From NCBI GenBank assembly GCA_002787815.1, contig PCUY01000016.1:89802-153801 (forward strand): 64,000 nucleotides of DNA. The letters run 5' to 3'. Positions within the stretch are counted from its first letter, which is position 1. Every line of letters begins with the position of its first letter. The DNA comes from Bacteroidetes bacterium CG12_big_fil_rev_8_21_14_0_65_60_17. Its GTDB lineage: Bacteria > Bacteroidota > Rhodothermia > Rhodothermales > UBA10348. Under the pieces are notes generated by a model. It was given only the letters and a program-made list of their open reading frames with translations. It was not told where the DNA came from and made no database searches. A program made the translations under genes and the position numbers. Positions 28,401-61,864 of this stretch are shown here, in pieces.

Positions 28401-30314
28401 TTACCAGGTAGGTTCGCCGTTGAAACGTTCAATGAGTGCGCGCACGGCAGGATATTCTTCGGACTTCTGTTCAAGGAAAGCCCGGTCGTCGACATCGGTC
28501 TGTCCACTGTGAGCCGTGTCCTGGTCGGGCGGGGATACTTCAAAACGAATGGTATCCACGTGGATACCTGAAAGTTCGCCGAGCCGGTGGGCCAGCTTGG
28601 AGCGCTCGGCCGAGAGGGTCCTTGCGTGGAAGTCGGCGGGTACGGCCAGTGTCACTGTTCTCGCCGAAAACGTTGTGATGGAGCTGTGGGAAAGCAGCGA
28701 TCCTATCTGCTTCCGGGATTCCATGATGTCTGAGGTGAGGCGTACCCATGCCTCCTGCAGAACACCGAGTTCGTCTGTATCTACGACGGCAGCTTCCACA
28801 CCTGCTTCAGGTCTCTGGTCGGTGTCGTTGCGGGGGCGTCGCAGAATGGCGGGTTTGACGTTCAGCGCAGGCGACGGCATGGTCGTAACACGGGATGATT
28901 CCGGGGGCGGTGCGGGCGCGGCCTGGTTGTCGGGCGCGGTCGGCGTCGGAGGCGCGGCCTGGTTGTCGGGCGCGGTCGGCGTCGGAGGTGCGGCCTGGCT
29001 GTCGGGCGCCGTCGGCGTCGGAGGTGCGGCCTGGCTGTCGGGCGCGGTCGGCGCCCGGGTTGATGGCTGGGGCGTTCCCGAGGCCGGGCGGGCAGGTTTC
29101 GCCGGGCTGGACCCTTGTGTCTCGACCGTGAGGTGAATGCCTTCCCGATCGGCTTTCTGCTCGAGTCGGGTGGCAATATCCAACATGGACTTCAGATCGA
29201 GCGCGCTTGGGAGGGATGCCATTTTGAGCAGCGCCATCTCCAGCCGCAGCCGGGGCTGACGGGCCGTGCGCAGGGTATCGGCCGTTTCACCGGCAATATG
29301 GATCAGTGCCATCAAGGTTGACTCCGAGAATTCACGGGCGTGCTCGGCGGTGCGTTCTTTCATGCGGGTCGACGCATCTACCAGTGACAAATCCTCCATG
29401 GTTATGGCGACCAACAGGTTGCGGAGATGCTCCGAGAAACCGTCAATAAACTCCTGGATGTCATAACCGGCCCGGACAACGGTATGCACCAGTTGGATCA
29501 TGGCGGCTGCGTCGCTGTGGAGTACGGCCTGTGTGGCCCGGAAATAGAGGTCGTCATCAACAACTCCGAGTGCGGACCGGAGCGTGTCATGGGTAATGGT
29601 CGTGCCGCAGAGCGAGACGGCCTGATCGAATACAGAGAGGGCATCGCGCATGGCGCCATCTCCTTTGCGTGCAATGAGTACGAGCGATGCTTCGTCGACG
29701 TCGACCTGCTCCTCCGTACAGATCTGTTTGAGTTGTTCAACGATTTCGGTCACAGCAATACGGCGAAAGTCGAAACGTTGGCACCGGGACTGGATCGTCG
29801 GCAGCACCTTGTGTGGTTCGGTCGTCGCGAAGATGAACAGTGCGTGTGGCGGGGGCTCTTCAAGTGTTTTGAGCAGCGCATTGAACGCTGCGTTGGAGAG
29901 CATGTGCACCTCGTCTATGATGTATACTTTCATCCGGTTGCCCTGGGGAGGGACACGGACCGTCTCCCGAAGCTCCCGGATGTCTTCGACCTTGTTGTTC
30001 GAGGCCGCATCGATTTCGATGATGTTCATGTTGCGGCCCTGCTCGAAGGAGCGGCAGGAGTCACACGTGCGGCATGGCTCCGCGGCATCGATTCTTTCCG
30101 ATGCCGGTGTCGAGCAGTTGATGGCTTTCGCGAGAATACGTGCCGCCGTCGTTTTCCCGACACCGCGTGGACCGGTAAAGAGGTAGGCGTGTGCCAAGCG
30201 GTCAAGACGGATGGCATTCTTGAGCGTGTCGGTGACGTGCTCCTGGGCCACGACCTCACTGAAGGTCTGGGGCCGATACTTGCGGGCGGTAACGAGATAA
30301 GCGGTGGACGGCAT
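28401..30314 (-). CDS. dnaX: DNA polymerase III subunit gamma/tau
   Basis: ARKYRPQTFSEVVAQEHVTDTLKNAI, GPRGVGKTTAARILAKAINC, IIDEVHMLSNAAFNALLKTLEEPP; start trimmed to MPSTAYL. Confidence 0.95.
   Translation of the reverse strand: MPSTAYLVTARKYRPQTFSEVVAQEHVTDTLKNAIRLDRLAHAYLFTGPRGVGKTTAARILAKAINCSTPASERIDAAEPCRTCDSCRSFEQGRNMNIIEIDAASNNKVEDIRELRETVRVPPQGNRMKVYIIDEVHMLSNAAFNALLKTLEEPPPHALFIFATTEPHKVLPTIQSRCQRFDFRRIAVTEIVEQLKQICTEEQVDVDEASLVLIARKGDGAMRDALSVFDQAVSLCGTTITHDTLRSALGVVDDDLYFRATQAVLHSDAAAMIQLVHTVVRAGYDIQEFIDGFSEHLRNLLVAITMEDLSLVDASTRMKERTAEHAREFSESTLMALIHIAGETADTLRTARQPRLRLEMALLKMASLPSALDLKSMLDIATRLEQKADREGIHLTVETQGSSPAKPARPASGTPQPSTRAPTAPDSQAAPPTPTAPDSQAAPPTPTAPDNQAAPPTPTAPDNQAAPAPPPESSRVTTMPSPALNVKPAILRRPRNDTDQRPEAGVEAAVVDTDELGVLQEAWVRLTSDIMESRKQIGSLLSHSSITTFSARTVTLAVPADFHARTLSAERSKLAHRLGELSGIHVDTIRFEVSPPDQDTAHSGQTDVDDRAFLEQKSEEYPAVRALIERFNGEPTW
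28921..29065 (-). repeat. About four 36-bp in-frame tandem repeats inside dnaX (PTAPD[SN]QAAPPT units)
   Basis: gcctggttgt recurs at 28921 and 28957, then gcctggctgt copies at 36-bp spacing; Pro/Ala-rich linker. Confidence 0.9.
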
Positions 30315-30393
30315 GGCGTACGGGTGTGACAACCGGTCGGGATTGTGGTATTCCTTCGTTCGGCTGAGGATCCGCGCCCGGTTGGGGCACCTG

Positions 30394-30699
30394 TCAGCCG
30401 GTCGGGAACAGGACCTGTACGATATGGATTGCCAGGCGTCGACGCAACGCATCGAGGCGGACATGTGAGAGGCCTGTTTCCCGAAGCGTCTCAAGGCGGA
30501 CCACGTCGAGCCTGGATTTGGCAAGCCACTCCAGCTCCTCGGGTGTAATATGACCGGTGGCGGCCTGGGCGCTCCACTTCCGGATGTCTTCGCGAATGTC
30601 CGTGAGCAGGTGCCGGGCAGCCGACACCGATGCTGCAGCCAGGTCGGGAAACTCGGCTTTCAGGGCCGAGAGAACGGATTCGACGAGCGGTTCAGACAT
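30394..30699 (-). CDS. Hypothetical protein
   Basis: 101 aa soluble helical ORF, overlaps next ORF by 8 bp. Confidence 0.6.
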   Translation of the reverse strand: MSEPLVESVLSALKAEFPDLAAASVSAARHLLTDIREDIRKWSAQAATGHITPEELEWLAKSRLDVVRLETLRETGLSHVRLDALRRRLAIHIVQVLFPTG

Positions 30700-31208: not shown

Positions 31209-32321
31209 GTGGACACTGCGCCATCATACCGAAAAATCATCCACATCGATATGGATGCATTCTTTGCGTCGGTGGAACAGCGGGACCACGTGGAACTCCG
31301 GGGACGACCGGTGGCAGTTGGTGGATCATCGCGGCGCGGCGTGGTCGCTGCGGCGAGTTATGAAGCACGGACGTACGGCGTGCATTCGGCCATGCCCTCG
31401 GTCACAGCGGCACGCCGATGCCCCGGTCTGATTTTCGTACGCCCCCGATTTGACGTCTATCGGGAAGAGTCGCGTCGCATACGCCGTATTTTCCATGAGT
31501 ACACATCGCTTGTGGAGCCATTGTCGCTCGATGAGGCGTATCTGGATGTGACGCGGCCGCTGACGGGCCCTCCCTCGGCAACACTTCTGGCGCGGATCAT
31601 CCGTCGGCGGATATCTGAGGAGACAGGCCTGACAGCCTCTGCGGGCGTGAGTTTCAACAAGTTCCTGGCAAAGACAGGGTCGGGGTGGCAAAAGCCGGAC
31701 GGCCAGACACTCATTACACCTGGAGAAGCGTCTGCATTCATTGCAGCGCTACCGGTGTCCAAATTCCATGGGGTCGGCCCTGTTACGGCAGGGCGTATGG
31801 AGAGCATGGGTATACGAACGGGGGCCGACCTGCGTGAGCGCTCGGAAGAAGCGCTGGTTGCTGCGTTCGGTAAGGCCGGGAGATATTACTGGCGAATGGC
31901 GCATGGCCAGGACGACCGCCCTGTCCGTCCACACCGGGAGCGCAAGTCCCTGGGTGCCGAGCGCACGTTTACCGAGGATGTGTCCGGTATGGAATCCCTG
32001 TACGAACGTCTCGCCGACATAGCGGCCGTTGTGGCGCGCCGCGCGGCCGATGTGGCGTGTGTGGGTCACACGGTGACACTGAAAATCAGGTACCATGATT
32101 TTGAGCAGTCAACACGTCAGACGACGACGGACACCTGCATTTCGGAGCCGGAAGATCTGTATGAGACGGCCGTTCTGCTGCTGGAGCATGGCGGACCAAA
32201 GCCCGAAAAACCTGTTCGGCTCCTCGGAATCACCCTGTCCAGTCTGCGCAGGGTAGGCGAAGACGGTATTCCCGCACAACTCACGATGGCTTTCACCGGT
32301 GCCGGTGTCAAGCGGCACTGA
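31209..32321 (+). CDS. dinB: DNA polymerase IV (Y-family), catalytic motifs intact
   Basis: IIHIDMDAFFASVEQRDH, SLDEAYLDVT, GVSFNKFLAKTGSGWQKPDGQT. Confidence 0.95.
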   Translation: MDTAPSYRKIIHIDMDAFFASVEQRDHVELRGRPVAVGGSSRRGVVAAASYEARTYGVHSAMPSVTAARRCPGLIFVRPRFDVYREESRRIRRIFHEYTSLVEPLSLDEAYLDVTRPLTGPPSATLLARIIRRRISEETGLTASAGVSFNKFLAKTGSGWQKPDGQTLITPGEASAFIAALPVSKFHGVGPVTAGRMESMGIRTGADLRERSEEALVAAFGKAGRYYWRMAHGQDDRPVRPHRERKSLGAERTFTEDVSGMESLYERLADIAAVVARRAADVACVGHTVTLKIRYHDFEQSTRQTTTDTCISEPEDLYETAVLLLEHGGPKPEKPVRLLGITLSSLRRVGEDGIPAQLTMAFTGAGVKRH

Positions 32322-33971: not shown

Positions 33972-33992
33972 GCACATATACATAATATGTGC
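33972..33992. promoter_or_regulatory. Perfect interrupted palindrome GCACATAT-acata-ATATGTGC between divergent genes
   Basis: 8-bp arms, 5-nt spacer, 2 bp from the first possible ATG of the ImuB-like gene. Confidence 0.6.
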
Positions 33993-33993
33993 A

Positions 33994-35184
33994 ATGAATA
34001 TGTATTATGGATGTGTGGAATATGTGTACTGTGTATATATCCCGGAATTTCCGGCATGGGCGGCCCGGCAGGCTGGCGCTGCGGCGCCCGTCGTGGTGGT
34101 ATCGGGGGGGCGCGTTGTGGCCAGGGAACGTGTGCGGAGCCTCAGGAATGTGGTCCCCGGAGACCGTGCAGACCGCGTCAAAGGGGTCTGCGCATCGGCA
34201 ACGGTCTGTGTGCGTGACATACACACGGAAACTACGTGTTGGGAATCACTCTTGCGCCGCGTTCATGACCTGACCCCGTTCATGGAAACGACCGGCCCCC
34301 CCTTTCTTTTTTTCAGGCAGCCGGATGAGAGTGTGTTGCGGACGTGGATATCCGGAACAGGCCTGCAGGTCGGTACCGGAGAGGGGCGGGCCATGGCCCG
34401 GCTCGCCGCACTACGGGCTACTCCCGGACACGTACTCCGGGTCAGTCCCAACCGGGAGCAGCGCTTCCTGGATGGCTTTCATGTAAGGCGCCTGGCTGCT
34501 CTCGGCGTGCCGCCTGGGGTGACCGAACAGATGGAGCTCTACGGGCATATGGCATTGGGCTCGTTTCGACGGCTTACGCTGCGTCATCTCAAAGCCCAGT
34601 TCGGGAGGCACGGAGAATTTGTCCACAGCCTGATTCACCCTACTCCGGACAGCCCGATTACAACGTGGCGGCCACCGCCGTCGGTGGTGGCCGCCCATTC
34701 CTGGCCCGAATCCGTGCCTGCATCTGAACAGATGCTTCAGCCGGTGATTGGAGACGTGGTGGCCCGGGTCGTGGATGCACTGGGCGCACGGCGTACGCAG
34801 TGCATCGGATTGCTGCTGGACGTGGCAGAGGGCCCTCCGGGAGACCGGAGCGCACATTCCGTCATGCGTCGCCATATCCTGCAGGAACCCGTGCACAGGG
34901 CGGAAACCATACGACATGCCACCTGGCGCCTGCTCCGGGAGGTGATCGGGCCCGCCGGGTGTCACCTCGACGGCCTCCAACTGCACCTGGAGGCATTGCA
35001 GCAGCCGGCCGTGCACCAGAAAGATTTTTTCGATGCGCGGCCTGCTATCCGGAATGCGGTGCGTACCATACAGAAGCGGTATCCGGGCGTGCTGCGGAAA
35101 GTACGGCTGCGCCCGCATGCCGTGTTCGATGAAGACCGGACAACGCTTGAGTCCATTGAACCGGATGGTCCTTCGGACGACTGA
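33994..35184 (+). CDS. Y-family DNA polymerase-like protein, catalytically degenerate (ImuB-like); start could be 33994, 34000 or a downstream GTG
   Basis: VYCVYIPEFPAWAARQ...VVVVSGGRVVARE...ESLLRRVHDLTPFMETTGPPFLFF...GEGRAMARLAALRATPGHVLRVSPNREQRFLDGFHVRRLAALGVPPGVTEQMELYGHMALGSFRRLTLRHLKAQFGRHGEFVHSL parallels the Y-family palm/thumb pattern but lacks catalytic acids. Confidence 0.72.
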   Translation: MNMYYGCVEYVYCVYIPEFPAWAARQAGAAAPVVVVSGGRVVARERVRSLRNVVPGDRADRVKGVCASATVCVRDIHTETTCWESLLRRVHDLTPFMETTGPPFLFFRQPDESVLRTWISGTGLQVGTGEGRAMARLAALRATPGHVLRVSPNREQRFLDGFHVRRLAALGVPPGVTEQMELYGHMALGSFRRLTLRHLKAQFGRHGEFVHSLIHPTPDSPITTWRPPPSVVAAHSWPESVPASEQMLQPVIGDVVARVVDALGARRTQCIGLLLDVAEGPPGDRSAHSVMRRHILQEPVHRAETIRHATWRLLREVIGPAGCHLDGLQLHLEALQQPAVHQKDFFDARPAIRNAVRTIQKRYPGVLRKVRLRPHAVFDEDRTTLESIEPDGPSDD

Positions 35185-61578: not shown

Positions 61579-61630
61579 GTATACTGGATGCCCCTGTACA
61601 TATTTTGCACATATACCGTCTGACCCCATC

Positions 61631-61864
61631 GTGAAGCGCCGAAGTGAACCCGTGGATGTTGATGTGACGAAGGGCTGGCCCGTTGTCATACGGCGCAACG
61701 GCCGCATCTACCGGGTAGAGTCCATGCTGGATGTCTGGATTGTGCAGGGAAAGTGGTGGTCCCGTGAGGAGCGCCGGGTGTACTTCCGCGTGTCCACGAC
61801 GCATGGCATCATGGATGTGTACAACGCGGACGCTACCTGGATACTGGCGAGCGTCGAGGACTGA
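61631..61864 (+). CDS. DUF6504-like small protein (GTG start)
   Basis: KRRSEPVDVDVTKGWPVVIRRNGRIYRVESMLDVWIVQGKWWSREERRVYFRVSTTHGIMDVYNADATWILASV. Confidence 0.7.
   Translation: MKRRSEPVDVDVTKGWPVVIRRNGRIYRVESMLDVWIVQGKWWSREERRVYFRVSTTHGIMDVYNADATWILASVED

Follow-up and report, generated by a model that had tools for sequence, protein, structure and literature searches.

A catalytically dead Y-family protein as a probable dispersed member of an ImuY/ImuB-C/DnaE2 mutasome type in a Bacteroidota lineage

Within the window, as the whole 64,000-nucleotide stretch of DNA that was analyzed is termed here, an imuY-like gene on the forward strand (34015..35184) encodes a catalytically dead Y-family protein of the iPolY kind, PolY, which has 389 amino acids when counted from a GTG at 34015 or 396 when counted from an ATG at 33994. 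From that ATG the frame stays open for 396 codons until the stop at 35184, the two starts are alternatives, and the peptide segments VYCVYIPEFPAW and TPFMETTGPPFLFF, quoted in an earlier note on this DNA, are both present in it. The same note placed an intact dinB about 1.7 kb upstream, and the gene for DNA polymerase IV is indeed there (31209..32321, same strand) with its catalytic residues kept, a neighbor that stands outside the system considered here. Upstream of PolY, at 33972..33992, is a palindrome, GCACATA-N7-TATGTGC, a candidate LexA operator with altered spacing. A standalone imuB-C gene lies 27 kb further downstream, still within the window (61631..61864, forward strand); it has a GTG start, encodes a DUF6504-like protein of 77 amino acids and was recognized with the ImuB-C profile A3 (E=7.2e-15). 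Just upstream of it, at 61598..61614, is the operator-like site ACATATTTTGCACATAT.

Alignment of PolY with the window's own DinB bears out the proposal that the metal-binding D and DE residues are gone, as Y and P stand in place of the two acids of IDMDAFF and the SLDE of DinB falls inside a deletion, and not one of the 22 aligned PolY orthologues retains the catalytic acids (D, D, DE). There are 21 relatives with 26-74% identity, and comparison of the gene with its counterpart in a congener (the pair G000/G003) gives dN of ~0.17, dS of ~1.06 and dN/dS of ~0.16; the gene is real and under purifying selection. A misread frame is ruled out by that selection and by the occurrence of the same frame in the 21 relatives.

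The Y-family layout discerned earlier in the remainder of the protein is also upheld. The family profile built from the 22 orthologues matches DNA polymerase IV (7yll) at 5.6e-20 over positions 25-349, a profile-profile comparison of PolY with DinB gives 98.6%, NCBIfam DNA polymerase IV models match the window's PolY at 2e-9, and 18 of the 22 family members have a Pfam IMS match. With the window's copy by itself the Pfam IMS_C match (0.0022) is under the cut-off, and an AlphaFold model of PolY, made with two sequences as input, has a pLDDT of 32, a confidence too low for use. At profile level these matches point firmly to Y-family ancestry. A scan of viral contigs found no relative. PolY is homologous to DinB along the Y-family core, and differs from it in being devoid of the catalytic acids and in having an extra C-terminal tail.

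The tail carries a motif of the QxxLF class near the C-terminus in all 22 orthologues, a candidate for the clamp-binding motif that the earlier note proposed to look for. It is QKDFF in the window (35017..35031) and QTSLF, QASLF, QMSLF and others elsewhere, with the first Q and the last F invariant and L or F at position four. Its conservation and its agreement with the QxxLF consensus of PMC12926913 make QKDFF a candidate β-clamp-binding motif through which PolY would bind the clamp. Next comes a helix of the form AVxxVHRRYPxxxRR, PAIRNAVRTIQKRYPGVLRKVRLR in the window (35041..35112), shortly after which the protein ends. In place and pattern the tail motifs of PolY agree with the clamp and RecA-NT motifs of Timinskas and Venclovas (PMC6511836, PMC12926913). 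The helix is conserved in the family and aligns in register with the RecA N-terminus (PAIRNAVRTIQKRYP against RALDLALKQIEKTYG), but the match is weak (P=0.084, equaled by 14 of 200 column shuffles), and the helix may possibly be RecA-binding. The ImuB-C profile does not match PolY, a result to be read with the detection of the domain by the same profile in two of seven ImuBs.

That neither imuA nor dnaE2 adjoins PolY is correct, yet its designation as an orphan does not hold, and its seeming lack of partners is misleading, because imuB-C is 27 kb away and dnaE2 is on another contig. Two DnaE genes are present in the genome, an assembly of 2.9 Mb in 90 contigs that is 95.5% complete: the replicative one on contig C27 and a second at C51:8392-11964. 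The latter scores best with the model for the error-prone polymerase, though under that model's strict cut-off, and its PDIDVDF catalytic motif is intact. The imuB-C orthologue in congener G003 is 79% identical with dN/dS of ~0.17; a single-sequence AlphaFold model of ImuB-C has a pLDDT of 51.5 and is also too low in confidence for use.

Sister species within the family have the PolY orthologue immediately upstream of dnaE2, and the gap between the two codes for a standalone ImuB-C of ~79 amino acids, homologous to the ImuB-C of Deinococcus deserti, which in turn matches Pfam DUF6504. Six relatives have such a tight cassette, inactive PolY-ImuB-C-DnaE2 with PolY first, and five others have looser imuY/imuB-C/dnaE2 clusters. 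The three genes are scattered in the genome studied here, two of them in the window and dnaE2 elsewhere. They are on one contig in congener G001, with imuY at 183.9, imuB-C at 210.0 and dnaE2 at 339.5 kb, and in congener G003 imuY and imuB-C are ~30 kb apart. G003, at 97% completeness, yielded no detectable dnaE2 despite having the other two genes. In congener G002 (JAJCYR010000047.1) imuY is a pseudogene, with residues 116-335 gone and the frame altered, and searches of that genome for dnaE2 and imuB-C detected neither, an apparent loss of the entire system.

A survey of 60 relatives shows both imuY and dnaE2 in 17, just one of the two in 5 and 3, and neither in 35, but the corresponding p=5e-8 overstates the case because the genomes are related; restricted to the family, the co-occurrence has p=0.02. 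Of the 21 family genomes with imuY, 19 also carry imuB-C, against none of the five family genomes lacking imuY. Standalone ImuB-C copies also occur in two genomes where imuY was undetected, G059 and G050, the latter with two copies and with no DnaE2 match at the threshold applied. Three order-level relatives (G029, G053 and G043) have distant dead Y-family proteins of ~360-370 amino acids that are devoid of the QxxLF motif, in genomes lacking a DnaE2 or ImuB-C match; this pseudo-polymerase family is more truly orphan than the PolY considered here.

A palindromic motif trained solely on lexA promoters, acATATGTgacACATATgt, precedes 75% of the imuY genes and 55% of the dnaE2 genes, and many of the PolY-orthologue upstream regions have strong lexA-type sites of 20-26 bits. 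Upstream of dinB the figure is 9% (1 of 11), near the 5% expected, and the window's dinB has no lexA-type site. In the window's own genome the lexA and recA sites are clear, at 24.5 and 17.4 bits respectively. The best site at its imuY is weak (12.6 bits, p=0.05) and is elsewhere than the 33972-33992 palindrome; the sites at its dnaE2 (12.1 bits, p=0.01) and imuB-C (11.6 bits, p=0.003) were scored with the same motif. The 17-bp pattern ACATAWKTTGCACATAT, with up to two mismatches permitted, is found genome-wide only upstream of imuB-C and dnaE2, where both instances are exact; as it was drawn from those two sites, this shows specificity and is no independent discovery. The genome also encodes a second LexA-like protein (C82:44586-44777), whose promoter has its own sites, TGTATATAAGTACA and TGTATATATTTACA, unlike the motif of the first lexA.

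The dispersal of the cassette on this side of the family, the weak operator of imuY, the broken copy in G002 and the undetected dnaE2 of G003 could be taken to mean that the cassette has been broken up in the genus and that the PolY gene is a decaying remnant, vanishing or with no role in mutagenesis. That is improbable given the constraint on both imuY and imuB-C in the G000/G003 comparison, the conserved clamp motif, and an operator common to imuB-C and dnaE2 that is present nowhere else in the genome.

PolY had also been likened to ImuB, and what stands of this is that it is a dead Y-family accessory protein; it is not ImuB proper. It could be a canonical ImuB, its ImuA and DnaE2 partners having been relocated or lying in an unassembled part of the genome, given its dead Y-family core and ImuB-like clamp motif, the position of the PolY group as sister to ImuB in the tree, and an assembly of 90 contigs at 95.5% completeness. 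The proposed search of the full genome for both partner genes gave dnaE2 on C51 and no ImuA. The NCBIfam ImuA model NF033429 finds RecA alone in this genome, and is a poor test, its cut-off being passed by no control genome; a profile was therefore built from six plasmid ImuAs and run on the genome and 26 relatives. It found no ImuA in any of them, the matches being to RecA and weakly to RecA-family-like proteins. In the window's own genome they are RecA (contig C39) and one weak spot in a longer protein on C23, which is probably another RecA-family ATPase.

In a tree of the PolY family with the ImuY of four Deinococcus, one Abditibacteriota iPolY, seven ImuBs and seven DinBs, the family groups with the Deinococcus ImuY and the Abditibacteriota iPolY (0.98), apart from ImuB. 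The DnaE2 tree, with a limited reference set, joins its DnaE2 to that of Deinococcus and Abditibacteriota (0.95), and the clade of ImuA/ImuB-associated DnaE2A (1.0) excludes the family's DnaE2. With the ImuB-C separate instead of fused to PolY, no ImuA found and DnaE2 outside that clade, the canonical ImuB reading is largely refuted and its probability is very small. That PolY assists a polymerase other than DnaE2, for instance the neighboring DinB, is scarcely credible: the two genes are 1.7 kb apart and remain near each other in congeners G001 and G003, but sister genera cluster the PolY gene with dnaE2 and not with dinB, no lexA-type site is found at dinB, and the occurrence of PolY tracks dnaE2 and imuB-C.

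The kind of system to which PolY is assigned is already described (PMC6511836, PMC8072749, PMC12926913). D. deserti no longer shows UV mutagenesis once ImuY or DnaE2 is lost (PMC8072749). The system there likewise comprises an inactive Y-family protein, a standalone ImuB-C of ~80 amino acids and DnaE2, with no ImuA; it is under LexA control, for which the sites in the genome studied here are weak to moderate and those of orthologues strong, and the trees join its Y-family protein and its DnaE2 with those described here. Deinococcus records have the order lexA-imuY-imuB-C-dnaE2, and in an Abditibacteriota record a small gene lies among these same genes. The differences are that in the window's genus the genes are dispersed, that lexA is outside the cassette and that the Y-family proteins are ~25-30% identical, as measured on a family member. 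The putative DnaE2X-iPolY-ImuBC-RecA complex (Timinskas et al. 2026, PMC12926913; Kyrpidia-type operon, PMC6511836) also has iPolY, a separate ImuB-C and DnaE2 and no ImuA, with RecA proposed in its place; the RecA-NT match of the PolY here is weak. With the canonical ImuA-ImuB-DnaE2 (e.g. of Mycobacterium, PMC10421592) the set described here shares a dead Y-family scaffold with a clamp motif and a DnaE2 partner, and from it differs in that the canonical ImuB has a fused ImuB-C, ImuA exists and DnaE2 is of the DnaE2A clade.

PolY is most likely a dispersed member of the ImuY/ImuB-C/DnaE2 (DnaE2X-iPolY-ImuBC-RecA) mutasome type, and the conjecture that it is a divergent or minimal mutasome scaffold, a catalytically dead accessory protein of the ImuB class, was right. 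With a probability of roughly 0.85, it is the ImuY scaffold of a DNA-damage-inducible mutasome having a separate ImuB-C and DnaE2, with RecA probably replacing ImuA. Against this stand the weak operator of its own imuY, the undetected dnaE2 of G003 and a RecA-NT match that on its own is non-significant. Judging from the parts found and from the literature on D. deserti and the ImuA-ImuB-DnaE2 mutasome, release of LexA would induce the system, and ImuY would use QKDFF to dock on the sliding clamp. DnaE2 would be brought to the stalled fork by the thumb and little-finger regions of ImuY acting with the separate ImuB-C, RecA probably standing in for the absent ImuA, and would then copy past the lesion in an error-prone manner. 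We infer from these parts that the proteins form a complex, that RecA is one of its subunits and that it causes mutagenesis.

What is added to the earlier descriptions is a mutasome without ImuA and with a split ImuB in a Bacteroidota lineage, and a state in which the three genes are dispersed and two have a common operator. One bacterial family spans the intact cassette, a dispersed but apparently co-regulated set and the broken remains in G002, and is therefore useful for asking what parts a DnaE2 mutasome needs. A bolder and tentative proposal, to which we give somewhat less than even odds, is of a DnaE2 mutasome with RecA itself as the subunit replacing ImuA and with three unlinked genes joined only by LexA-type operators; if true, this would be a natural test bed for the idea of RecA-containing DnaE2 complexes preceding ImuA-ImuB-DnaE2. 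Elsewhere in the window, on the reverse strand at 28401-30524, there is a dnaX-like gene whose product has a repetitive proline-rich linker with repeated PTAPDSQAAPPT-type units.
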